This document shows positions 4,887-17,324 of a stretch of 64,000 nt of DNA, piece by piece. The first letter of the stretch is position 1. Each line of letters starts with the position of its first letter. The notes beneath the pieces were generated by a model that was not told the DNA's origin, did not search any database, and saw nothing but the letters and a program-made list of their open reading frames with translations. The position numbers were made by a program, and so were the translations under genes. Source of the stretch: Allonocardiopsis opalescens (lineage in GTDB: Bacteria > Actinomycetota > Actinomycetes > Streptosporangiales > Streptosporangiaceae); assembly GCF_003002095.1 (NCBI RefSeq), contig NZ_PVZC01000001.1:1178001-1242000 (forward strand). Reading direction: 5' to 3'.

Positions 4887-5068
4887 CAATTGTCGGCGCC
4901 TGGAAAATGCGGAGCGTTTGGTTTTTCCGATCCGTCGACCGGGAACAACCGACCTCGGTAATATGACGGTGCGGGAATCGGTGGGACTGGGTAATCCCCG
5001 TCGAGTCCGTGTTCAAATAGCGCACCTCCTTTATTTAGGCTGTCCAGGTTTCCTGAAGGGAATTGAAA

Positions 5069-5596
5069 ATGGTTGCTGCCGCCACCGTGTCCGACCGCCT
5101 CGCCCAGCGCTTCCGGCTCTGGGACGTCGACGGGAACGGCGTGGTCGAGCGCTCGGACTTCGAGGCCGAGGCCGAGCGCATCATCACCGCCCTGGACGCG
5201 CAGGGCACACCGCAGGGCGACGAGCTGCGGCGCTCGTACCTGGAGATGTTCGACGGCCTCTCCCGGGCCGCGGGCACCGACCGGATGACCGCCGAGCAGT
5301 TCGAGAAGGTCGCCGAGAAGGAGATCATCAGCAAGGGCGACGCGGGCTTCTCCCGCGTGCTCGGCCCGACCATCCAGTCGATCGTGCAGGTGCTCGACAC
5401 CGACAGCGACGGGGAGGTCAGCCGGGTGGAGATGCAGAAGTGGTTCATGGCCATCGGGCTCCAGGAGGAGGAGGCCGACGCGGCCTTCGCGGAGCTGGAC
5501 ACCGACGGCAGCGGCCGGCTGTCCACGACCGAACTGGTCGACGCGGTGCGCGACTACCACCTCGGCCGCAACGACATCCCCCTGCTCGGCCGCTGA
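5069..5596 (+). CDS. EF-hand calcium-binding protein, calerythrin-like
   Basis: This is a 175-residue acidic protein. ATG 5069 follows GAAGGG with 8-base spacing. Three canonical EF-hand loops begin at Asp19 (DVDGNGVVERSD), Asp110 (DTDSDGEVSRVE) and Asp144 (DTDGSGRLSTTE). The second of four expected positions, near residue 70, is degenerate. Length and layout fit calerythrin/sarcoplasmic calcium-binding proteins of actinomycetes, which act as cytoplasmic calcium buffers or sensors. There is no signal peptide. A 182-bp gap with lower GC precedes it, so it may have its own promoter. Its place inside a biosynthetic-looking run is unusual. Confidence 0.9.
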   Translation: MVAAATVSDRLAQRFRLWDVDGNGVVERSDFEAEAERIITALDAQGTPQGDELRRSYLEMFDGLSRAAGTDRMTAEQFEKVAEKEIISKGDAGFSRVLGPTIQSIVQVLDTDSDGEVSRVEMQKWFMAIGLQEEEADAAFAELDTDGSGRLSTTELVDAVRDYHLGRNDIPLLGR

Positions 5597-5710: not shown

Positions 5711-6922
5711 GTGGAGAAAACCCTCTCACCCCCCGCGGACGCCCCTGCGCGGAAAGCGCCGGCGTCCACCGAGATCCCATTCTTCAGCCAGGCCGCCGAA
5801 TTCGAACGGCTGTGGCCGCGCATCCGGAACGAATGCGTGCGCGTACTGGACCGCGGCAAGTTCTCGCACGGCGCGATGGTCGCCGAATTCGAGCGCGAAC
5901 TCGCCCGCTGGACCGGTGCCCGGCACGTCGTCGGCGTCAATTCCGGCACCGACGCGCTGGTGCTGCTGCTGCGCGCCGCCGGGCTGCGCCCCGGCGACGA
6001 GGTCATCGTGCCCGCCTACACCTTCGTCGCCACCGCGAGCGCGGTGGTGCTGGCCGGGGGCGTCCCGGTCTTCGCCGACATCGAGCGGCGCGGGTACGGC
6101 GTCGACCCGGCGTCGGTGGCCGCCGCGGTCGGCCCGCGCACCCGCATGGTCATGCCGGTGCACCTGTTCGACCGCCTCGCCGACATGGCGGGCGTGCACG
6201 AGGTCGCCCGGCGGCACGGCCTGACCGTGCTGGAGGACAGCGCCGAGGCGATCGGCATGCGGCTCGACGGCAGGCACGCCGGGCTGCTGAGCACCGGCGG
6301 GGTGCTGTCGTTCTTCCCCGCCAAGACCCTCGGCGCGATCGGCGACGCGGGGGCGCTGCTCACCGATGACGACGGCATCGCCGAGACCGCGCGGCGGCTG
6401 CGCCACCACGGCCGCGCCGGGCGGACCCTGGACGACTTCCCCGGTATCGCCAACCCCACGGTCGTCTCCGGCTGCAACAGCAAGATGGACGACCTCCAGG
6501 CCGCCGTCCTGCTCGCCAAGCTGGCCGGGCTCGACGCCGCGATCGCCCGGCGGGCCGAACTGTCGGCCCGCTACGACGCCCGGCTGCGCGGCCTCCCCGG
6601 CGTGCGCGCCGTGCCCGGCGAGGTGCCGCCGCACCCCGGCGGCGGCCGGGTCGTGTACGTGCACCTGATCGAGGCCGACCGGCGCGACGCGCTCGTCGCG
6701 CACCTGGCCGCCCGGGGCATCGGGACCGAGACCTACTACCCGCTCCCGCTGCACCTCCAGCCCTGCTTCGCGCACCTGGGCCACGCCCCCGGCGACTTCC
6801 CGCGCGCCGAGGCGGCCTGCGCCTCGGCCGTCGCGCTGCCGCTCTACCCCGACCTCACCGACGCGCAGGCGGACCGGGTCTGCGACGCGATCGAGGACTT
6901 CTGCACCAGGAGACGACGGTGA
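5711..6922 (+). CDS. DegT/DnrJ/EryC1/StrS family PLP aminotransferase 1
   Basis: This 403-residue enzyme starts at GTG 5711 behind AGGAACGGA. Family features include the SGTDALVLLL phosphate-binding segment, the VLEDSAEAIG motif (pyridine-ring Asp) and the SFFPAKTLG motif, where Lys205 should form the Schiff base with PLP. Such enzymes transaminate keto sugars and cyclitols; a subset, like AHBA synthase, aromatise. Its stop overlaps the next aminotransferase by 4 bases. Two different family members side by side suggest a doubly aminated product or successive transaminations. The gap before it (5597-5710) shows no gene. Confidence 0.9.
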   Translation: MEKTLSPPADAPARKAPASTEIPFFSQAAEFERLWPRIRNECVRVLDRGKFSHGAMVAEFERELARWTGARHVVGVNSGTDALVLLLRAAGLRPGDEVIVPAYTFVATASAVVLAGGVPVFADIERRGYGVDPASVAAAVGPRTRMVMPVHLFDRLADMAGVHEVARRHGLTVLEDSAEAIGMRLDGRHAGLLSTGGVLSFFPAKTLGAIGDAGALLTDDDGIAETARRLRHHGRAGRTLDDFPGIANPTVVSGCNSKMDDLQAAVLLAKLAGLDAAIARRAELSARYDARLRGLPGVRAVPGEVPPHPGGGRVVYVHLIEADRRDALVAHLAARGIGTETYYPLPLHLQPCFAHLGHAPGDFPRAEAACASAVALPLYPDLTDAQADRVCDAIEDFCTRRRR

Positions 6923-8088
6923 CCGCCCCGACCCCCGCCACCCCCCGTACCGCCCCGCCCATCCCCTTCTTCCCGCCCGACCTGTTCGAGGCCGACCGCG
7001 AGGCGCTGCTGGACACGGTGCACGCCGTGGGCACCGGCGCCGCGCAGAAGTTCATCCTCGGCGGGCACACCGCCGGCTTCGAGCAGGCCCTGCGCGAGAG
7101 CCTGGGCGCGGCCGAGGTCGTCGCCTGCTCAAGCGGCACCTCCGCGCTCACCCTCGTGCTGGCCGCGATGGGCGTGGAGCCCGGTGACGAGGTGGTGGTG
7201 CCCGCCTTCGGCTGCGCGCCGCTGGCCGCCACCGTCGCCAACCTCGGCGCCCGGCCCGTCTTCGCCGACATCGACCCGGTCTCGCTGACCATCGACCCCG
7301 ACGCCGCCGAGCGGCTCATCACCCCGCGCACCGCCGCCCTGATGCCCGCGCACCTCTTCTCGGTGATGGCCGACATGCCGCGCTTCCGCGAACTCGCCGA
7401 CCGGTACGGGCTGCGCCTGGTCGAGGACTCCGCCGTCGCCCAGGGCGGCGTGCTGCGGGGCCGCCCGGCCGGGCGCTGGGGCGACGCCGGGGTCTTCTCC
7501 TTCGTCCAGGTCAAGACCTTCGGCATGCCCGGCGAGGGCGGCGCCGTCGTCACCGACGACCCCGCGCTGGCCGGCCGGGTGCGGATGCTGCGCAACCACG
7601 GGCAGGACGGCGCGCGGCGCTTCGTGCACCACGTCGTCGGCCACAACAGCCGCTTCGACGAGCTTCAGGCCGCCTTCCAGCTGCACCGGCTCCCCGGCCT
7701 GCCGGAGCGGCTGGCGCGCCGGGCCGAGATCGCCCGCCGCTACTCCGCCCGCTTCGCGCCGCTGGCAGGGGCAGGGATCACGGCGCCGCAAGCCGGCGGG
7801 GACGGCCGCTGCCACTACGTCTACACGGTGCTGGCCGAGCGGCGCGACGCGCTGCGGGCCCACCTGGCCGCCAAGGGCGTGGACACCCACGTGTACTACC
7901 CGCGCACCCTGCCCGCGCAGCCCGCCTTCGCGCACTTCGCCCCGCCCGGGGCGCGCTGGCCGAACGCGGAGTCGGCGGCGGCGCGCAACCTCTCGCTGCC
8001 GCTGTACCCGCACCTGACCGACGAACAGGTGGAGCACATCGCCGACACCGTGTGCGCCTTCGCCGACCGGACTGGAGAGGTCCGATGA
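6919..8088 (+). CDS. DegT/DnrJ/EryC1/StrS family PLP aminotransferase 2
   Basis: This 389-residue enzyme starts at GTG 6919, coupled to the first aminotransferase. It has the SSGTSALTLVL phosphate segment, LVEDSAVAQGG, and FSFVQVKTFG with Lys199 as the predicted PLP lysine. It differs strongly from its neighbour around the lysine (QVKTFGMPGEGG against PAKTLGAIGDAG), so it is a distinct subfamily and not a recent duplicate. It should use a different keto substrate or act at a different step. It is coupled by a 4-base overlap to the UbiA-type gene. Confidence 0.9.
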   Translation: MTAPTPATPRTAPPIPFFPPDLFEADREALLDTVHAVGTGAAQKFILGGHTAGFEQALRESLGAAEVVACSSGTSALTLVLAAMGVEPGDEVVVPAFGCAPLAATVANLGARPVFADIDPVSLTIDPDAAERLITPRTAALMPAHLFSVMADMPRFRELADRYGLRLVEDSAVAQGGVLRGRPAGRWGDAGVFSFVQVKTFGMPGEGGAVVTDDPALAGRVRMLRNHGQDGARRFVHHVVGHNSRFDELQAAFQLHRLPGLPERLARRAEIARRYSARFAPLAGAGITAPQAGGDGRCHYVYTVLAERRDALRAHLAAKGVDTHVYYPRTLPAQPAFAHFAPPGARWPNAESAAARNLSLPLYPHLTDEQVEHIADTVCAFADRTGEVR

Positions 8089-9062
8089 CCGACCAGATCA
8101 CCCGCCCGGCCGCCGCGCCCGCGGCGGGCGCCCGCGGCCGCGCCGCCGCCTACGCGCGGCTGGCCAAGCTCGACATCTACGACTACTACATCGGCCTGCC
8201 GCTGGTGTGGGCGGCGCTGCCGCCCGCGCTGCGCTGGGAGCCGGGGACGCTCGGCCTGCTCGTGCTGATCCTGGCCGCCGAGGTCGCCACGGTGGCGGCC
8301 ATGGTCGCCTTCGACGACGTCACCGGCTACCGCGACGGCAGCGACGCCGCCAACTACGGCTCGGACGCCGCCCGGCGCAGACTGGCCAGGAAACCGCTGG
8401 TGGCGGGGACGCTGACCGAGGCGCAGGCGCTCCGCTTCGCCTGGGCGGCCACCGCCGCGGCCGCGGCGCTGTGGGCGCTGGCCGTGGCGGCCGCCCCGCA
8501 CCGCCCGCTGTGGGCGGTGCTACTGGCGGCCGGCTGCCTGGCGGCGTCCGTCCAGTACTCCTGGGGGCTGAAGATCAGCTACCGGGGCTGCCAGGAGGTC
8601 TTCCTGATCGGCCTGGGCATCGGCTGGGTGCTGGTGCCCTACGCCCTGCTCGCCGGGGAGGCGCCCGCCTTCATCGCGGTGCAGGCGGTGCTGTTCGGCT
8701 TCGGGCCGATGCTGTTCGGGCTGTACTCCAACACCCACGACATCGACGGCGACCGCGGCGCCGGGCGGATCACCGTCGCGGCCACGGTGCCGCCCCGCCT
8801 CAACACCGCCTTCGTAGTAGCGCTGACCGCCGCGGAGAGCCTGCTCATCACCGGCGCCACGCTCACCGGCGCCGCGCCGTGGTGGTTCTCGGCCGTGCTG
8901 GCGCCGGTCTTCGTGCTGCGCCTCCGCCAGCTGCACACCGGCTTCGTGCGCGGCGACATCCTGCGGGCCCGCCGGACCGCCATCCGCACCCACCGGCTCA
9001 CCGTCGCCCTGCTGTTCGGCGCGAACCTGGCCGCGCCGGTCATCGCCGGAGCGCTCGGATGA
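8085..9062 (+). CDS. UbiA-type membrane prenyltransferase
   Basis: This 325-residue integral membrane protein has about eight or nine hydrophobic segments. Both UbiA metal-diphosphate motifs are visible: D77-D78 in DDVTGYRDGSD, and NTHDIDGDRG with D219 and D223. The family transfers an allylic or phosphoribosyl diphosphate-derived group to an acceptor in the membrane. No prenyl diphosphate synthase is encoded nearby, so the donor must come from elsewhere. Start ATG 8085 overlaps the previous stop, and its own stop overlaps the next ATG. MenA or UbiA housekeeping roles are less likely because no quinone genes accompany it. Confidence 0.85.
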   Translation: MTDQITRPAAAPAAGARGRAAAYARLAKLDIYDYYIGLPLVWAALPPALRWEPGTLGLLVLILAAEVATVAAMVAFDDVTGYRDGSDAANYGSDAARRRLARKPLVAGTLTEAQALRFAWAATAAAAALWALAVAAAPHRPLWAVLLAAGCLAASVQYSWGLKISYRGCQEVFLIGLGIGWVLVPYALLAGEAPAFIAVQAVLFGFGPMLFGLYSNTHDIDGDRGAGRITVAATVPPRLNTAFVVALTAAESLLITGATLTGAAPWWFSAVLAPVFVLRLRQLHTGFVRGDILRARRTAIRTHRLTVALLFGANLAAPVIAGALG

Positions 9063-10444
9063 GCCCCGGCCTGGACGTCGCCGTCGTCGGGGCGGGCCCC
9101 GCCGGGCTGGCCACCGCCTACGCGCTGGGCGAGGCGGGCCTGGCCGTGCGGGTGCTGGAGGCGGCCGACGCCGTCGGCGGCCGGATGCGCACCCTGCGCG
9201 AGCACGGCTTCCTGATCGACACCGGCGCCGAGATGCTGCCGCCCGCCGCGGGCTACCCGGCGACCTGGCGGCTCGTCCGCGAACTGGGCCTGGACGCCCC
9301 CGGCGCGGTGCCGCGGGTGCCCGGCGCGCTCGCCGTGTGGCGCGGCGGGCGGGCGCGGCCGCACGCCGGCCGGCCGCTCGGGCTGCTCACCGGCGCGGGC
9401 CTGCCGCCGCGCGCCCGCCTGGACCTGGTCCGGCTCCAGGCGGCGCTGGCCGCGCGGGCCAGGGCCGGCGGGCTGGACGCCGACCGCCCCGAGCGTTCCG
9501 CGCTGGGCGCGGCCACCGCCGCGCAACTGCTGGCGCCCTACCACCGCGAGCTGCGCACCCGCCTGCTCGGTCCGCTGGCCGCGGGCTTCTTCGGCTGGGA
9601 CCTGGCCGAGGCGGCGGCCGCGCCGCTGGCCGCGCACCTCGTCGCGGCCGGCGGCACCGCCGGCTGGCGCACCTACCGCGACGGCATGGACGCCTTCGCC
9701 CGCGCGCTCGCCACCCGGCTCGACGTGGCCACCGGGCGGGCCGTCACCTCGGTGGCGGCCGTCGCCGGCGGGGTGCGGCTGGAGACGGCCGCCGGCGCCG
9801 TCACGGCGCGCGCCGCCGTGCTCGCGGTGCCCGCGCCGGTGGCGGCCCGGCTGCACCCGGACGCGCCGCCCGTCGAACGCGACTACCTGGCGGCCTGCGG
9901 CTACGCGCCGATGCTGCGGGTGTCGCTGCTGCTCGACCGGCCGATGGCGCCCGCCGGGGCCGAGCGCGGCTTCGCCGTCCTGGTCCCCGCCGCGGAGGAC
10001 CCCGTGATCAACGTGATCACGGCCGAGCACAACAAGCACCCCGGGCGGGTGCCCGCCGGGCGCGGGCTGCTGTCGCTCGTCACCTCGCCGCGCGGCACCG
10101 CCGAGCTGATCGACGCGCCCGACGACGAGCTCGCCGAGCGGCTCACCGCCCGCGCCGAGCGCTTCGTCCCGGGCCTTTCGGCGCGGATCGACTCCGTCCG
10201 CGTGCACCGGTTCCGGCACGGGCTGCCGCTGGCGACCCCCCGCGCCCTCGCGGCGCGCGCCGCCTTCGCGGCCCGCCCCGCCTCGCCGGTGGAGTACGCC
10301 GGCGACTGGACGGCACTCCGTCCGTGCAGCGAGGGAGCGGTCTCGTCGGCCGCCACGGCCGCCGAGCGGCTGCTCGCGCAGCTTTCCCCGGGCGGCGTCG
10401 GGCGGCCGGGAGACCGCCTGGCCGCCGCCCTCGACTTCGAGTGA
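9059..10444 (+). CDS. FAD-dependent oxidoreductase of the amine oxidase/protoporphyrinogen oxidase superfamily
   Basis: This 461-residue flavoprotein carries an N-terminal dinucleotide motif (VVGAGPAGLATAYAL) followed by LEAADAVGGRMRT, the arrangement of amine oxidases, phytoene desaturases and protoporphyrinogen oxidases. The C-terminal FAD-closing segment reads YAGDWTALRPCSEGAV. It has no signal peptide. It is coupled to the UbiA-type gene, so a role in oxidising or desaturating a prenylated intermediate is a reasonable guess. Oxidation of an amine made by the DegT enzymes is the alternative. Confidence 0.82.
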   Translation: MSPGLDVAVVGAGPAGLATAYALGEAGLAVRVLEAADAVGGRMRTLREHGFLIDTGAEMLPPAAGYPATWRLVRELGLDAPGAVPRVPGALAVWRGGRARPHAGRPLGLLTGAGLPPRARLDLVRLQAALAARARAGGLDADRPERSALGAATAAQLLAPYHRELRTRLLGPLAAGFFGWDLAEAAAAPLAAHLVAAGGTAGWRTYRDGMDAFARALATRLDVATGRAVTSVAAVAGGVRLETAAGAVTARAAVLAVPAPVAARLHPDAPPVERDYLAACGYAPMLRVSLLLDRPMAPAGAERGFAVLVPAAEDPVINVITAEHNKHPGRVPAGRGLLSLVTSPRGTAELIDAPDDELAERLTARAERFVPGLSARIDSVRVHRFRHGLPLATPRALAARAAFAARPASPVEYAGDWTALRPCSEGAVSSAATAAERLLAQLSPGGVGRPGDRLAAALDFE

Positions 10445-10452
10445 GGAGCCCC

Positions 10453-12060
10453 ATGACGCTCTTTCGCACCCCCATCGAGCTGGGCACCCTCTTCGAGGAC
10501 CTGGCCGGGCGCGGCAGCGCCACCACCGTCCACCTGAGCAGGCCGATGGACATCGCGCCCGGCCTCGGCACCGAGCTGGCCCTGCCCCGGCTGGCCCGGC
10601 TGGCCGCCGAGGCGTCGGGCTGGCTGGCCTCGGCCGGGACCCGGCCGGGCGACCGCGTCGCGATCGCCAAGCGCAACCACTGGGACTACGTCGTGCTGTC
10701 GTGCGCCGCGGCCCGCATCGGCGCGGTGCCCGTGTCGCTCTCGGCCCACCTGGCGCCCGACACGCTGGCCGTGCTGCTCAAACGGCTCGACCCGGCGCTG
10801 CTGGTCACCGACGCCGCCCTGCTGGCCGCCGGCCGCGAGGCGGGCGCCGATCCGTCCGCGCTCGCCGCCCGGACGGTCCTGGTGGACGGCACCGCCGAAG
10901 GCGTGCTCGGCCTGGACGACGTGCGCGGCGGCGCGATCCCCGCGCCCCGCCGCGCCGCCCCCGACGCGCCGCTGGCGATCATGCACACCTCGGGCACCAC
11001 CGGCGTGCCCAAGCTCGTCGTGCACTCCAGCCGCACGATCATGCGCCGGCTGGCCGGCTTCGAGGCGCACCGCTGGCCCGTACTGGGCAGCCGCCCCGAC
11101 GACACCGTCGCCGGCGCCGTCTCCTTCGCGCACGGCCGCGCGCTGGCGTGGACCGCGAGCGTGCTGTGGCTGGAGCCCGCGCGGCTGCTCGCCGTCACCT
11201 CCGGCGACTGGGCCGAGGCGGGACCCTTCCTGCTCCGGCACCGCCCGACCACACTCGAGGCGCTGCCCGCCACCTACGTGCGCTGGCAGCGGCGCACCCA
11301 GGAGCCCGGCCACCCCTTCGAGCGGGTGCGGCTGTTCATCAGCACCTTCGACGCCATGCACCCGCCGACCGTCCGCGCCTTCCTCAACGGCACCCGCCAC
11401 CGCAGGCCGGTGTGGATGCAGGGCTGGGGCCAGAGCGAGACCGGGCCGCTCACCTTCCGCTTCCTGACCCGCCGCGCCATGGCCCCCGAACACGGCCGCC
11501 ACCCCACCACCCGCGACCTCGGCCGCCCGGTGCCGACCCGCACCCGGCTGCGCGTGGTCGACGCCCGGACCCTGCGCCCGGTCCCGCGCGGCACCCCGGG
11601 CCTCGTGCTCTGCCGCACCAAGGCGCTCTGCCTCGGCTACGTCGGCGAGCAGGAGCGCTGGCGGGCCAAGCGCACCGGCGGCTGGTGGAACACCGGCGAC
11701 ATCGGCGTCCTCACCCGCACCGGCCGCCTGCTGTTCGTCGACCGCGAACTGGACGCCATCCCCGAAGGCAGCTGCGTCGAACTCGAAGACGTCATCGACG
11801 ACCGCGTCCCCGAGGTGCAGGAGTGCGTCGTCCTCAGCGTCCCCGGCCGGCCCTCCCAGCCCGTCGTCGTCACCGAGGACGGCGCCCTGGACCCCGCCGC
11901 CTGGCGGCGCGCCGTCGCCGACCTCCCCCCGCTCGCCGACCCCGTCGTCACCACCTGGGACACCCTGCCCAGGACCGGCACCGGCAAGGTCCGCCGCACC
12001 GTCCTGCGCGACCTCCTCGGCCACCGCTCCGACCCGTACGGAACCGGCCGGTGGACCTGA
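10453..12060 (+). CDS. AMP-dependent acyl-CoA synthetase/ligase 1
   Basis: This 535-residue adenylate-forming enzyme has ATG 10453 with GAGGAG upstream. Motif A3 reads HTSGTTGVPK, A5 reads GWGQSETG, the A7 region reads NTGDIG, and the C-terminal lysine motif is RTGTGKVRR. The usual A8 hinge is altered (VDRELDAIPEGSCVELED rather than a GR-D-IKxxG form), so substrate or thiolation behaviour may be unusual. It should activate a carboxylic acid as an adenylate and possibly form a CoA thioester for the following CaiB-type protein. Confidence 0.85.
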   Translation: MTLFRTPIELGTLFEDLAGRGSATTVHLSRPMDIAPGLGTELALPRLARLAAEASGWLASAGTRPGDRVAIAKRNHWDYVVLSCAAARIGAVPVSLSAHLAPDTLAVLLKRLDPALLVTDAALLAAGREAGADPSALAARTVLVDGTAEGVLGLDDVRGGAIPAPRRAAPDAPLAIMHTSGTTGVPKLVVHSSRTIMRRLAGFEAHRWPVLGSRPDDTVAGAVSFAHGRALAWTASVLWLEPARLLAVTSGDWAEAGPFLLRHRPTTLEALPATYVRWQRRTQEPGHPFERVRLFISTFDAMHPPTVRAFLNGTRHRRPVWMQGWGQSETGPLTFRFLTRRAMAPEHGRHPTTRDLGRPVPTRTRLRVVDARTLRPVPRGTPGLVLCRTKALCLGYVGEQERWRAKRTGGWWNTGDIGVLTRTGRLLFVDRELDAIPEGSCVELEDVIDDRVPEVQECVVLSVPGRPSQPVVVTEDGALDPAAWRRAVADLPPLADPVVTTWDTLPRTGTGKVRRTVLRDLLGHRSDPYGTGRWT

Positions 12061-14000
12061 CGGAGCGGACGGCGGACACCGCCGGGGGACAGGGGCGACC
12101 GGCCGAGGGCGGCGCGGTCGGTACGGAGTCGCGTGCGCCTGCCACCAGGCCCGAGCCGAGAGGCCGACCTGGCGTGGGCGGGGCCGTAGGGGAGCGGGCG
12201 TCCGGCGCGGTCCCAGGTCGCGCGGACGCGGCGGCGTGGTGGACGGGGGATGCCGCCCGGCCCCTGGCCGGGACGGCGGCGCGCGTGCTGGGCGGGTCCA
12301 CGGCGGCGCGCGTCGCGGCGGCGCGGCTGCGGGCGATGGGCTGCGCGGTCGAGCGGGTGGACGGCCCGCCGCCAGGAGAGGCCCCGGCCGGGTGGATCGA
12401 GGCCACCTCGATCCCGGCGGCCGGAGGCGGTCCGCTGCCCGGCTGCGCGATCGGCTGGTCCGGGCCGGTCGGCGCGGTGCTGGCCGGCGAGCGCGATGTG
12501 CAGGCCGCGTGCGGGATCGCGCAGGTGCACGGACGGGCCGCCGGCGGGCCGCGCGAACTGGGCGTGGACTACGCCTCGGTGTGCGCGGGGGTGCTCGCCG
12601 CCCAGGCGCTCGCCGCCTCGGTGCTGGCGCTGCTGCGCGGCGGCCCCGTCCTGCGCGCGGCGACCTCGGTCGCCCAGGCGGCGCTGCTCGCCGTCACGCA
12701 GTACGTCGCGGCCGCGACCGCGTCCGGCGGAGGCGGCTCTACCGGGGACGATGCCGCGCCCCCCGGCACCGGCCCCGGCGACGCCTCCGAGCGCCGGGAG
12801 CGGACGCCGCCGTTCCGGTCGGCGGACGGAGTGCGCTTCGAGATCGAGACGCTGGACGCGGAGGCGTGGCTGCGCTTCTGGACCGCGCTGGGCGCCCCCC
12901 GCGCGGCGGTCGCCGCGGGCTGGCCCGCCTTCCAGTCGCGCTTCGCCACCGCCGTCTGCCCACTGCCGCCCGAACTGGCGGCCTGCGCCGCGGCCCTGCC
13001 GTACCGGCGGCTGCTCGACGCCGCCACCGCCGGCGGCGTCAGCGCGGTACCGGTCCGGGGGGCCGACGCGCCCGCCCTGCCCGTCCCCGCGTCGGAGTGG
13101 CGGCTGGGCCGGACCTCCGCCGGACGGGACCGGTGTGACGGCGCGTCCGGGGGGCGGGCGTACGGGGAGTCCGGGGCGCCGGAGCACCCCCTGCCGCCGC
13201 TGCCCCCGGACGGACGGGCGCCGCTGGCCGGCCTGCGGGTGGTGGAGGCGACGACCCGGGTGCAGGGGCCGCTCGCGGGCCACCTGCTCGGGCTGCTCGG
13301 CGCCGAGGCGGTGCGGCTGGAGCCGCCCGGCGGCGACCCGATGCGCGGGGTGCCGCCGTTGGTAGGCGACCGCTCGGCCCGCTTCCTGGCGCTCAACCGG
13401 AACAAGGGCGCCGTCGAGGCCGACCTGAAGACAGCGGCGGGGCGCCGCGCCGCGCTGCGGCTGATCGCGTCGGCGGACCTGTTCCTGCACAACTGGCCGC
13501 CGGGGCGGGCCGAGCGCCTCGGCCTGGGCAGCGCCCGGCTCGCGGCCGTCCGCCCTTCGCTCGTCCATGTGCACACCGGCGGGTGGGCCGACACCATGCC
13601 GCATCCGCAGCCGCTCGGCACCGACTACCTGGTGCAGGCGCACAGCGGCCTGGGCGCCCTGGTCGGCGCCCCCGGCGAGCCGCCCGCGCCCTCGCTGATG
13701 ACGCTCACCGACGTGCTGGGCGGCATCATCGGCGCGGAGGCGGCGGTCGCCGCCCTGCTCGCCCGCGCCCGCACCGGCGCGGGCGTCCGCGCGGAGACCG
13801 CCCTCGTCGACGCCGCCCGCCTGCTGCGCGCGCACGCCCGCACCACCGGCCGGTCCGCCGCCGTGCCCGCCGCGACCGAGCTGGCCGCGCTGGCCGCCGA
13901 CCCCGCGTTCGCCGCCGCCTTCGCCACCGAGGGCGCCACCCGCTTCGCCCGCGCCCCGTGGAGCTTCGCCCCGGCCGCGCGCACGGAGGGGGCGCGGTGA
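12051..14000 (+). CDS. double-domain CaiB/BaiF (class III) CoA-transferase-like protein
   Basis: GTG 12051 overlaps the previous stop by 10 bases and gives 649 residues. The C-terminal half (from about residue 385) is a recognisable class III CoA-transferase: LAGLRVVEATTRVQGPLAGH, then NRNKGAVEADL, then Asp525 in GTDYLVQAHSGL at the position of the catalytic aspartate. The N-terminal half (about 60-330) resembles a second CaiB domain but lacks an obvious catalytic Asp motif. It contains Gly/Ser-rich linkers near residues 225-250 and 360-385. A normal subunit is about 400 residues, so this is probably an intramolecular pair with one degenerate half. It likely moves CoA between acids made or used in this cluster. 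Confidence 0.75.
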   Translation: MDLTERTADTAGGQGRPAEGGAVGTESRAPATRPEPRGRPGVGGAVGERASGAVPGRADAAAWWTGDAARPLAGTAARVLGGSTAARVAAARLRAMGCAVERVDGPPPGEAPAGWIEATSIPAAGGGPLPGCAIGWSGPVGAVLAGERDVQAACGIAQVHGRAAGGPRELGVDYASVCAGVLAAQALAASVLALLRGGPVLRAATSVAQAALLAVTQYVAAATASGGGGSTGDDAAPPGTGPGDASERRERTPPFRSADGVRFEIETLDAEAWLRFWTALGAPRAAVAAGWPAFQSRFATAVCPLPPELAACAAALPYRRLLDAATAGGVSAVPVRGADAPALPVPASEWRLGRTSAGRDRCDGASGGRAYGESGAPEHPLPPLPPDGRAPLAGLRVVEATTRVQGPLAGHLLGLLGAEAVRLEPPGGDPMRGVPPLVGDRSARFLALNRNKGAVEADLKTAAGRRAALRLIASADLFLHNWPPGRAERLGLGSARLAAVRPSLVHVHTGGWADTMPHPQPLGTDYLVQAHSGLGALVGAPGEPPAPSLMTLTDVLGGIIGAEAAVAALLARARTGAGVRAETALVDAARLLRAHARTTGRSAAVPAATELAALAADPAFAAAFATEGATRFARAPWSFAPAARTEGAR

Positions 14001-14124
14001 TCGGGTACCGAGCGGCCGTCCCGAAACGCGGTTCCGGCCCATGTGCCCTCCGACGTGCCGCCGGTGCCACTGGGTGGGGTCCGGCGCCGGTCGCGGTCCG
14101 GCCGCAGATGCGCCGGGAGGCGCG

Positions 14125-16887
14125 ATGACCTGGGTCTCCGCCAATGGCGTCGTCGTGGCCGACCACGTCCCGCGGCGGCTGCGGGACCAGTGGACGGCGC
14201 GCGGGTGGTGTCCGGGGCGCGGGGTGTACGAGCTGTTCGCCGCGTGGGCGCGGGCCGTGCCGGGCCGGGCGGCGGTGGCCGAGGTGGACGGGGTGCTCGA
14301 CTACGCGGGCCTGGACGGTGCGGTGCGTCGGTCCGCGGCGGCTCTGGCGGGGCGGGGGGTCGGCCCCGGCGACATCGTCGGGATCCTGCTGCCCAACGGC
14401 CGGGCCGCGGTCGTCGCCGAGCTCGCGGTGGCGGCGGTGGGCGCGGTGTCGCTGCCGGTCCCCGACGGGCGCGCCGAGCGCGACGTGGTGGGCCTGCTGG
14501 GCCGGTCCCGCGCGGGTGCGCTGGTCACCGCGCCGGACGCGGCGGGACGGTACCTGGGCCGTGCCGACCTGCCCTATCTGCGCGAGGTCTGGATCACCGG
14601 GGCTGCCCGGTCCGGCGGGCGCTCCGAGGAGGGCGCGTCCCGGTCCGGCGAGCGTGCCGACGGCGCGCTCCCGCCGGGCGTGCGCTCCCTCGACGAAGCG
14701 GATCCGGCGCGGGTGCGGGCCTGGCGGCCCGCCGAGGTCGACCCCGAAACGCCCGCGCGGGTGCTCGTCTCGTCGGGCTCCGAGGGCGAGCCCGCGATGG
14801 TCGCCTACTCGCACAACGCCATGGCGGGCGGCCGGGGCAACTACCTGGCGGCGCTGCACACCGGACCAGGGCCGATGCGCAACCTGGTGCTCGTCTCGCT
14901 CGCGTCGTCCTTCGGCTCCTGCGGGGTGCCGGTGACGCTGGCCCGGCACGGCGGCACCCTGGTGGTGCTGCCGCGCTTCGACGCCGCCGACGCGCTGCGC
15001 GCGATCGAGCGGCACCGGCCCACCCACCTCATCGGCGTGCCGACGATGCTGCGCCGCATCGCCGAGCACCCCGGCGCGTCCGGCGCCGACCTGTCGTCGC
15101 TGCGGATGCTGGTCGCCAGCGGCGCCCCGCTGCACCTGGAGGCCAGGGACGCCTGCGTCCGCCGCTTCGGCCGCCCGGTGGTGAACGTCTACGGCTCCAC
15201 CGACGGCGTCAACTGCCACACCGGCCGCGACCCGGCCGCCTGGGTGCCGGGCCTGGCCGGGCGGCCCGCACCCGACGTCGCCGAGCTGGCGATCCGCGAT
15301 GCCGAGGGGCGCCCCGTGCCCGACGGCGAGCCCGGCGAGATCTGGGCGCTCGGCCCGATGACGCCGCTGGGCCACGTCGCCGCCCCGGAACTCGACGCCG
15401 CCCGCCGCGCGCCCGGCGGCTGGGTGCGCACCGGGGACCTCGGCCGGATCGACGCCGACGGCGCCCTGTGGGTGCTCGACCGGATCCGGCGGGTCGTGAT
15501 CAGGGGCGGCGTGAACCTGTACCCGGGCGAGGTGGAGCGCGGGCTCGCCGCCCACCCGGCCGTCGCGGACGCCTGCTGCGTGGCGGTGCCCGACCCCGAC
15601 CTCGGCGAGCGCATGTGCGCCTGCGTGTCCTGGCGGCCCGGCGCCGTCCCCGCCGCGCCGAGCGAGCTGACCGCCTTCCTGCGCGAGGCGCGCGGCCTGG
15701 ACCCGCGCACCCTGCCCGAGTACGTCCTCCACCTGCCCGAACTCCCGCTCGGCCCCACCGGCAAGGTCTGCGGCGCGACACTGGCCCGCACGGCCGCCGA
15801 GGCCGTCCGCACCGGCACCGCGCTCCCGGCCACCGCGACGGAGCCGCCCGGGAGCGGCGGTGCCGCGCCCCCGGCGCCGGTCGGCGCCGATCCGGCCGCC
15901 GCCCTCGATACGGCGGCTTCCGCGGCGCCGCCCCGTTCGGGGACCGGGTCGGGCGGCAAGGACATGCCGCCCGCGCGAAGGTCGTCGGTTCGGGTGGCTG
16001 CGGCCGCTGAGCGGAGCCGCCGCGATCCCGGCGACGCGCCCCGGCTGTCCCTCCGCGCCGCCGCGGACACCACCCACCCGTCCGATCCGAAGGAGGAGAC
16101 CATGCGGTACGTCTTCGACAACCACAGCGCGCACGCCGGTGACCAGCACCGGTTCCTGGCGGCGGCCTACGATCCGATGACCGTCGAGCGGCTGGCCGCC
16201 ACCGGGGTGGGGCCGGGGTGGCGGTGCCTGGAGGTGGGGGCGGGCGGCGGGAGCGTCGCGCGCTGGCTGGCGGAGCGGGTGGCGCCCGGGGGGCGGGTGC
16301 TGGCCACCGACATCAAGCCGGAGCTGATCCCGGCGGCGCCAGGGCTGGAGGTGATGCGGCACGACATCGTCCGCGACCCGCTGCCCGACGCCGCGTTCGA
16401 CCTGGTCCACGCGCGGCTGGTGCTGCTGCACCTCCCCGAGCGGCTCGCGGTGCTGGACCGGCTGGTGCGGGCGCTCAAACCCGGGGGCGTGCTGCAGCTG
16501 GACGAGTTCGACATCACCTACGGGCCCGGGCTGCTGATGCCCGACCCGGAGGCGGCGAAGCTCTACGACGTCTTCATGGAGGCCAAGATCCGGGTGATGA
16601 CGCGGGCGGGCGCCGATCCCGCCTGGGGGCGCAAGGCGCCCGCCGCGATGCGGGCCGCCGGGCTGACCGGCATCGACCCGGTGCCCCGGCTGGAGCTGTG
16701 GAACGCGGACTCGCCCGGGGTGCACCTGGTGGCGCACCACACCCGGCACCTGCGCGACGCCTTCGTGCGCGAGGGCATGACCGACCGGCGGCTCGCCGAG
16801 GTGCGCGCGCTGCTGGCCGACCCGGGCTTTTGCGCCTGCTCGTGCGCCGTCTACTCCGTCCAGGGCCGCCGGCCGCAGGCGGGGTGA
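14125..16887 (+). CDS. AMP-dependent ligase 2 fused in frame to a SAM methyltransferase
   Basis: One uninterrupted frame of 920 codons starts at ATG 14125. Residues 1 to about 560 form an adenylate-forming enzyme: A5-like VYGSTDG, A7 RTGDLG, A8-like IRGGVNLYPGEVE and C-terminal PTGKVCG. Motif A3 is degenerate (SSGSEGEPAM, no lysine after the proline). Residues from about 660 are a class I methyltransferase with motif I CLEVGAGGGS and ATDIKPE. The roughly 100 residues between are Ala/Pro/Arg-rich. A very strong ribosome site and ATG at 16102 lie exactly at the methyltransferase start. The locus may therefore make a fusion, a separate 261-residue methyltransferase, or both. Confidence 0.75.
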   Translation: MTWVSANGVVVADHVPRRLRDQWTARGWCPGRGVYELFAAWARAVPGRAAVAEVDGVLDYAGLDGAVRRSAAALAGRGVGPGDIVGILLPNGRAAVVAELAVAAVGAVSLPVPDGRAERDVVGLLGRSRAGALVTAPDAAGRYLGRADLPYLREVWITGAARSGGRSEEGASRSGERADGALPPGVRSLDEADPARVRAWRPAEVDPETPARVLVSSGSEGEPAMVAYSHNAMAGGRGNYLAALHTGPGPMRNLVLVSLASSFGSCGVPVTLARHGGTLVVLPRFDAADALRAIERHRPTHLIGVPTMLRRIAEHPGASGADLSSLRMLVASGAPLHLEARDACVRRFGRPVVNVYGSTDGVNCHTGRDPAAWVPGLAGRPAPDVAELAIRDAEGRPVPDGEPGEIWALGPMTPLGHVAAPELDAARRAPGGWVRTGDLGRIDADGALWVLDRIRRVVIRGGVNLYPGEVERGLAAHPAVADACCVAVPDPDLGERMCACVSWRPGAVPAAPSELTAFLREARGLDPRTLPEYVLHLPELPLGPTGKVCGATLARTAAEAVRTGTALPATATEPPGSGGAAPPAPVGADPAAALDTAASAAPPRSGTGSGGKDMPPARRSSVRVAAAAERSRRDPGDAPRLSLRAAADTTHPSDPKEETMRYVFDNHSAHAGDQHRFLAAAYDPMTVERLAATGVGPGWRCLEVGAGGGSVARWLAERVAPGGRVLATDIKPELIPAAPGLEVMRHDIVRDPLPDAAFDLVHARLVLLHLPERLAVLDRLVRALKPGGVLQLDEFDITYGPGLLMPDPEAAKLYDVFMEAKIRVMTRAGADPAWGRKAPAAMRAAGLTGIDPVPRLELWNADSPGVHLVAHHTRHLRDAFVREGMTDRRLAEVRALLADPGFCACSCAVYSVQGRRPQAG
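16090..16104 (+). promoter_or_regulatory. internal ribosome binding site and ATG for the methyltransferase part
   Basis: AAGGAGGAG is followed after a short spacer by ATG 16102, inside the open frame of the ligase-methyltransferase gene. It is among the strongest Shine-Dalgarno matches in the window. Its in-frame translation (Pro-Lys-Glu-Glu-Thr-Met) is not conserved-looking protein sequence, so it most likely serves ribosome binding. No stop codon separates the two parts. Confidence 0.75.
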
Positions 16888-17324
16888 CCGTGCCGCGCAT
16901 CGACCCGGGCGCCACGGCGCCGCACGTCTACGCCGCCATGGCCACCTTCGACGCGGCCGCGCGCCAGGGCCTGGACCGGCGGCTGGCCGAACTGGTCCGC
17001 ATCCGCGCCTCCCAGCTCAACCGCTGCGACTTCTGCCGGGACACCCACGTCCGCGCGGCCAGGGACGCGGGCGAGGACGAGCGGCGGCTGCGGGCGCTGG
17101 AGACCTGGCGGGACAGCGCGCTGTTCACCGCGGCCGAGCGCGCCGCGCTGGCCCTGACCGAGTCGATGACCCTCATCTCCGACTCCGGCGTCCCGGCCGA
17201 GGTCTTCGCCGCCGCCGCCGAGCACTTCGATGCCGCGCGGCTGACCCGCCTGGTCTGGACGATCGCCGCCATCAACACCTGGAACCGGGTCGCGGTCGCC
17301 TCCGCGCTCGCCCCTCCGGGGTGA
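16884..17324 (+). CDS. AhpD-like/carboxymuconolactone decarboxylase family protein
   Basis: This 146-residue protein has the AhpD core: a CDFCRDTHV motif (CxxC followed by His) near residue 46 that gives thiol-disulfide or peroxidase chemistry. The length suits single-domain alkylhydroperoxidase-like proteins. GTG 16884 overlaps the methyltransferase stop by 4 bases; GTG 16890 is an alternative start. It is the last gene of the left-hand run and may protect or oxidise a pathway intermediate. Confidence 0.82.
   Translation: MTVPRIDPGATAPHVYAAMATFDAAARQGLDRRLAELVRIRASQLNRCDFCRDTHVRAARDAGEDERRLRALETWRDSALFTAAERAALALTESMTLISDSGVPAEVFAAAAEHFDAARLTRLVWTIAAINTWNRVAVASALAPPG

Follow-up and report, generated by a model that had tools for sequence, protein, structure and literature searches.

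The gene at 14125-16887 of the stretch of Allonocardiopsis opalescens DNA analysed here (64,000 nucleotides in all, hereafter the window) joins an ANL-type ligase and a class I methyltransferase in one reading frame, and it probably represents one outcome of a recurrent in-frame fusion of translationally coupled cistrons in which the internal start of the second cistron has been retained. Two products are predicted, namely the fusion protein and a free methyltransferase. We infer both from the sequence, and the claim concerns these products rather than any benefit that the link might bring.

On the plus strand, a single frame without a stop runs from the ATG at 14125 to the TGA at 16885-16887 (920 codons), and formally the open frame around 14125 extends back to an ATG at 14041. 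It comprises the ligase module lig2 (14125..15840; ANL-superfamily acyl/aryl-AMP (CoA) type), a low-complexity linker (15841..16101) and a class I SAM-dependent methyltransferase (16102..16887; 261 codons from its own ATG), with the last having the same frame and stop as the ligase. A Pfam search of the 920-residue translation placed AMP-binding at residues 38-412 (PF00501, 201.8 bits, E 2e-59) and, in the order of ANL enzymes, AMP-binding_C at 469-547 (PF13193, 43 bits, E 9e-11), followed by Methyltransf_11 at 702-790 (PF08241, 57 bits against a cut-off of 21.2, E 3.1e-15). This bears out the sequence-only reading, which had described a ligase frame that stays open through low-complexity codons into a methyltransferase. 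The linker has 87 codons (113 if counted from the PTGK motif of the ligase), is 81% GC, and consists mostly of A/P/G/T/S/R/E/D. Solved relatives of the methyltransferase are only distant (best E 1.3e-8), and a structure model of the fusion, made from a two-row alignment, had a mean pLDDT of 29.6 and was set aside as useless.

The GC content by codon position is regular in both domains (mostly 0.95-1.00 at the third position and mostly 0.4-0.7 at the second), and it flattens in the linker (0.80/0.82/0.85 at positions 1/2/3 over 15841-16020), a pattern that fits an unconstrained linker as well as a former spacer. The rarity implied earlier for such an open linker did not survive simulation: an in-frame stop was lacking in 50% of linker copies made by mononucleotide shuffling and in 61% of those drawn from a first-order Markov model. 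In fact, stop-free runs of at least 300 codons number 123 over the six frames of the 64 kb window. As evidence in itself, the open linker was discarded, since about half of random linkers of equal composition (~80% GC) are stop-free. On the minus strand, a 1007-codon open frame (13726-16749) lies antisense to the ligase gene; plausibly an effect of the ~80% GC, it warns against equating open frames with genes in such GC-rich DNA.

A scan of genome contigs gave as the first relative Nocardiopsis sp. NRRL B-16309 (L001), in which both domains occupy one frame, with 72% identity in the best segment. Moreover, a methyltransferase search of the family matched 59 of 341 genomes at E<=1e-85; these matches were only partly fetched at length, and the adjacent pairs counted below were chosen from the best of them. 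The first 40 loci together with the window made 41 rows, of which 38 carry the ligase directly upstream of the methyltransferase, two have no ligase (L114, L115) and one has a partial ligase match (L118), these last three being left out of the pair counts. Nine rows show a single frame (the window, G178, G200, G172, G174, G182, G196, G087, and G083), with G196 and L001 taken to be the same genome and counted once. Separate genes were found in 29 of the 38 pairs, and none of these 29 shares the methyltransferase frame. A further 20 loci, 18 from the family and two from another family of the class (sample of 394 genomes), added two more separate pairs (L122, L140), and 16 had no ligase match in the stretch fetched. 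Overall, the comparison with two-gene relatives that the earlier reading had proposed places the ligase and methyltransferase in one frame in 9 of 40 adjacent pairs, the window included, and as two neighbouring genes in the same order in 31 of 40, the pattern that marks a gene fusion. In 18 of the 20 further loci, the methyltransferase occurs without this ligase directly upstream; it can stand alone.

We consider it very unlikely that an error of sequencing or assembly cost the window a stop or shifted its frame, since the one-frame arrangement recurs in eight other genomes, where the linkers are different. The regular codon-position GC on both sides of the linker also argues against such an error, though the window genome (G000) is a draft of 22 contigs and DNA of ~80% GC is in principle hard to sequence. 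As a separate observation, the ligase match in L118 (G303), which lies on an 8.4 kb contig, is partial and changes frame before its end, possibly through a sequencing error or as a broken gene. Beyond these loci, a scan of viral contigs by patterns gave no relative. Among plasmid records, those of Streptomyces sp. BHT-5-2 and Burkholderia multivorans have a ligase homologue next to a CaiB homologue, with this methyltransferase not found in the ~19 kb fetched.

Within lig2, the A3-like (SSGSEGEPAMV), A5 (YGSTDG), A7 (GD), and A10 (PTGK) motifs of ANL enzymes are present. The PTGK lysine and the GD aspartate are each present in 38 of 38 rows. The canonical A3 loop of ANL enzymes reads (S/T)SGTTGxPKG, and it is not matched by lig2; across the 38 rows, the commonest letters are SSGSEGEPKMV, with the lysine in only 14, and the alanine that replaces it in the window is also found in L001. 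The degenerate A3 motif noted earlier is therefore real, but we rejected decay as its cause, the loop being mostly a subfamily trait. The odd loop would thus be a subfamily variant, for the most part common to the subfamily, and the domain match stands. Among solved sequences, those best matching the ligase are a fatty acid CoA ligase (6sq8) and then a salicylate-AMP ligase (5wm2). While lig2 resembles such ANL ligases in domain make-up and sequence, it departs from them in an A3 loop that reads SSGSEGEP(K/A)MV and in sharing one frame with a methyltransferase.

The fused gene lies in an operon (5711-17324, plus strand throughout) that is probably biosynthetic, as judged from its enzyme types. 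Upstream are two DegT/DnrJ/EryC1/StrS aminotransferase genes (gene 1, 5711..6922; degT2, 6919..8088; both PF01041), a UbiA prenyltransferase gene (8052..9062; PF01040), a flavin amine-oxidase/HpnE-like oxidoreductase gene (9059..10444; PF01593, with the HpnE model below its cut-off), a first AMP-binding ligase gene, lig1 (10453..12060; PF00501), and a CaiB/BaiF family III CoA-transferase gene (12261..14000; PF02515, core only, the true start not being fixed). Downstream follows an AhpD/carboxymuconolactone decarboxylase-like gene (16884..17324), whose GTG start is read as overlapping the methyltransferase stop. The operon is largely conserved in the fetched loci: 35 of 41 rows have ubiA, the oxidase gene, lig1, caiB, lig2, and the methyltransferase together (the remaining six are contig ends, partial, or without the operon), degT2 is also present in 29 rows, and the AhpD-like gene lies downstream in 11. 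Just upstream of the operon, 5063-5596 encodes a small protein with EF-hand matches. In two loci from another family of the class (L123 in G523 and L124 in G613), the methyltransferase occupies another position in the operon, flanked by lig1 and caiB. A search of the open-licence literature found no paper on the operon or its product.

To place the fused genes among their relatives, we built a tree from the concatenated ligase and methyltransferase alignments (38 rows, 798 columns, LG+G4), which is a gene tree and not a species tree. On this tree the fused state changes five times, with at least three of the changes forced by starred branches; under shuffled labels the mean was 8.3 changes, and 2 of 500 shuffles were as low as five. 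The fused state is clustered on the tree, yet not single. One clade for the fused genes, a group chosen beforehand by fused state, was rejected by the AU test (p-AU 4.05e-6), and also without G083, and we discarded a single origin of the fusion on this gene tree. A clade of the window, G196, G200, and G172 was not rejected (p = 0.0575), and there may have been about three events rather than five. Fusion is only likely to be the derived state, and losses are possible, because the rows named as outgroup, none of them fused, were not gathered on a single side of any branch; the change counts read the same for gain as for loss of the stop.

From the PTGK motif to the methyltransferase core, the fused genes span 42 to 113 codons. 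Between G200 and G172, differences at codon positions 1/2/3 number 6/7/8 in the linker, against 25/22/85 in the ligase and 9/7/36 in the methyltransferase, where the third position is in excess. Moreover, codons with non-synonymous differences outnumber synonymous ones in the linker in 6 of 6 pairs of fused relatives (rows are shared among pairs, which are not independent). These spread and mostly non-synonymous differences lend no support to the linker as a conserved functional element, and no amino-acid constraint was seen in the related fused pairs. The fused group is defined by having the linker in frame, and the letters of the linker seem to be without visible constraint.

At the junction of the separate pairs, stop and start lie at most 10 nt apart in 23 of 28, and 16 of these have the 4-nt overlap that is typical of coupled genes; this count excludes L116, whose start could not be placed, and L118, with its partial ligase match. 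L116 is kept among the 29 for the stop-loss and energy counts. In 26 of these 29 separate pairs, if one stop codon were lost, the ligase would be read on, in a frame other than that of the methyltransferase, beyond the point where the methyltransferase core begins. Out-of-frame overruns of the methyltransferase start were nonetheless found in 0 of 38 pairs, against nine in-frame overruns. If a lost stop lands in any of the three frames, the probability that 3 to 5 independent events would all be in frame is ~0.04 to 0.004, by post hoc arithmetic. At other junctions of the operon, out-of-frame overlaps of at least 30 nt do occur, and include oxidase-lig1 in L090, methyltransferase-AhpD-like in L107, and degT2-ubiA in 17 of 29 rows, the last count depending on the ubiA start chosen. 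More conspicuously, fusions number 9 of 38 at the lig2-methyltransferase junction and 1 of 183 at the six other junctions (rows without either gene are omitted, and L095 is outside the caiB-lig2 count). The sole other fusion joins caiB and lig2 in L094 (G195), at ~7236 in operon orientation, with the methyltransferase separate there.

These counts bear on whether the link was favoured at all. The chances seem to us evenly divided on a neutral accident of GC-rich, stop-poor DNA, in which the extra domain does the ligase no harm and the link is neither favoured nor used. This reading concerns benefit and not products, and it is compatible with the recurrent fusion that we propose. The chance openness of half of such linkers, the spread of linker differences over codon positions with non-synonymous ones in excess in six pairs, and the several changes of the fused state all agree with it. 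Set against it are the lack of out-of-frame overruns, even though just one stop prevents them in most separate pairs, and the overlaps at other junctions, so that losing the stop in frame may be the favoured or the better tolerated outcome. We would raise only tentatively, as a rather improbable extension, the idea that the ligase stop acts as an evolutionary switch, whereby lineages would repeatedly trade translational coupling for in-frame fusion and keep or strengthen the internal site to offset the lost restart, so setting the ratio of tethered to free methyltransferase. Were this true, selection and not chance would explain why all overruns in the 38 pairs are in the methyltransferase frame.

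As for the internal start, the ATG at 16102 lies in the ligase frame and is preceded by the Shine-Dalgarno site AAGGAGGAG (16090..16098, plus strand; computed duplex energy -12.2 kcal/mol) and then ACC. The sequence-only reading had put a ribosome site and this ATG at the methyltransferase boundary, and we could confirm both. In the window gene, a site as strong was found for none of the 62 other in-frame ATG/GTG/TTG codons in the two domains, neither of the 2 other linker starts, and none of 20 forty-codon domain blocks (taking the best start in each); the ribosome site at 16102 is stronger than chance gives. At the internal start, no RNA structure beyond chance was detected (z 0.73). Taking as the junction start of each gene whichever start has the best site in the 40 codons that precede the methyltransferase core, we found that 9 of 9 fused genes keep a start codon and ribosome site at the place where the methyltransferase begins in separate relatives, though three of the sites are weak. 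A conserved site and start inside a longer frame is the pattern of in-frame dual coding.

Across the fused genes, 7 of 418 other in-frame domain start codons match the strength of their own junction. Since picking the best of several starts favours the junction, a fairer control is the best start per forty-codon block, and here 7 of 172 blocks reach the strength of their own gene's junction, all seven in the three weak-site genes (G178, -9.0; G196, -7.9; and G083, -7.9; matched by 3, 3, and 1 own-gene blocks, respectively). The median duplex energy is -11.6 kcal/mol for fused (n=9) and -9.3 kcal/mol for separate genes (n=29), with a Mann-Whitney p of 0.018, or 0.023 without L116, kinship being ignored in both tests. 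Five separate pairs with a spacer above 10 nt (-9.3, -9.3, -12.2, -11.9, and -11.5) have about the strength of the fused sites, and the stronger fused sites may reflect spacing or uncoupling and not fusion.

A simpler view is that the fusion protein is the only product made, or the only one of importance, with the internal start an unused remnant of the former separate gene. The window start falls exactly at the domain edge, where a site could be left over. GAGGAG also encodes Glu-Glu, through which the ribosome site could partly persist, and the weakness of three of the nine fused sites fits this view as well. Yet the site and start are kept in all nine genes despite linkers whose letters look unconstrained, and the fused genes do not form one clade. 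Moreover, the caiB-lig2 fusion in L094 has no comparable start from -30 to +10 codons of the ligase core start (the best is -4.4, 28 codons upstream), which is what one would expect of a junction that has no need of an internal start. On this evidence we hold the remnant to be distinctly unlikely and favour a fusion with a working internal start. The earlier reading had offered a fusion by stop loss or a nested gene with two products as alternatives; as such they fall, for both are supported at once, with most relatives having two genes and every fused gene keeping its internal start.

In the history that we favour, adjacent and translationally coupled ligase and methyltransferase genes would have lost the ligase stop in the methyltransferase frame, either more than once or with later regain. 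A ribosome finishing the ligase would continue into the 920-residue fusion, and as the ligase frame is without a stop, no free ligase is expected. Other ribosomes would start at 16102 and give a free 261-residue methyltransferase. The former coupling by stop and restart would thereby be replaced with physical linkage and independent initiation, while the linker would serve as a passive tether, with no constraint on how its letters change. A practical warning for annotation is that gene prediction may report a single protein of 920 residues and overlook the free methyltransferase, or do the opposite. The operon offers a natural series, from the 4-nt overlap and the short spacer to the in-frame fusion that has an internal start and, at the next junction in L094, a fusion that lacks a comparable one. 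Close relatives can therefore be compared for how coupled genes become a bifunctional enzyme.

Glucose-6-phosphate dehydrogenase (G6PD) has reportedly undergone multiple independent fusions with pathway enzymes, and the ligase-methyltransferase case is alike in that neighbouring pathway enzymes would have been fused more than once. With respect to linked cistrons, the GeneTack survey treats translational coupling and the fusion or fission of adjacent prokaryotic genes (PMC3711429). Its cases resemble the present one in that stop and restart link neighbouring genes whose homologues are fused elsewhere, but they are transitions between different frames, whereas in the window the frames coincide with no stop between. 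For the start within a frame, riboproteogenomics in Salmonella gives experimental support for bacterial N-terminal proteoforms (PMC11005335). There, alternative in-frame initiation likewise yields long and short proteins, while the long form predicted for the window would be a two-enzyme fusion. A further parallel is that of two-polypeptide phage endolysins, which are in-frame overlapping genes with an internal start, a shared stop, and two products shown experimentally (PMC9430671). Like these, the window gene has two in-frame starts and one stop, consistent with a full-length and a C-terminal product; however, the endolysin products are isoforms of one endolysin, whereas the short product predicted for the window would be a complete second enzyme, one that has a gene to itself in relatives.
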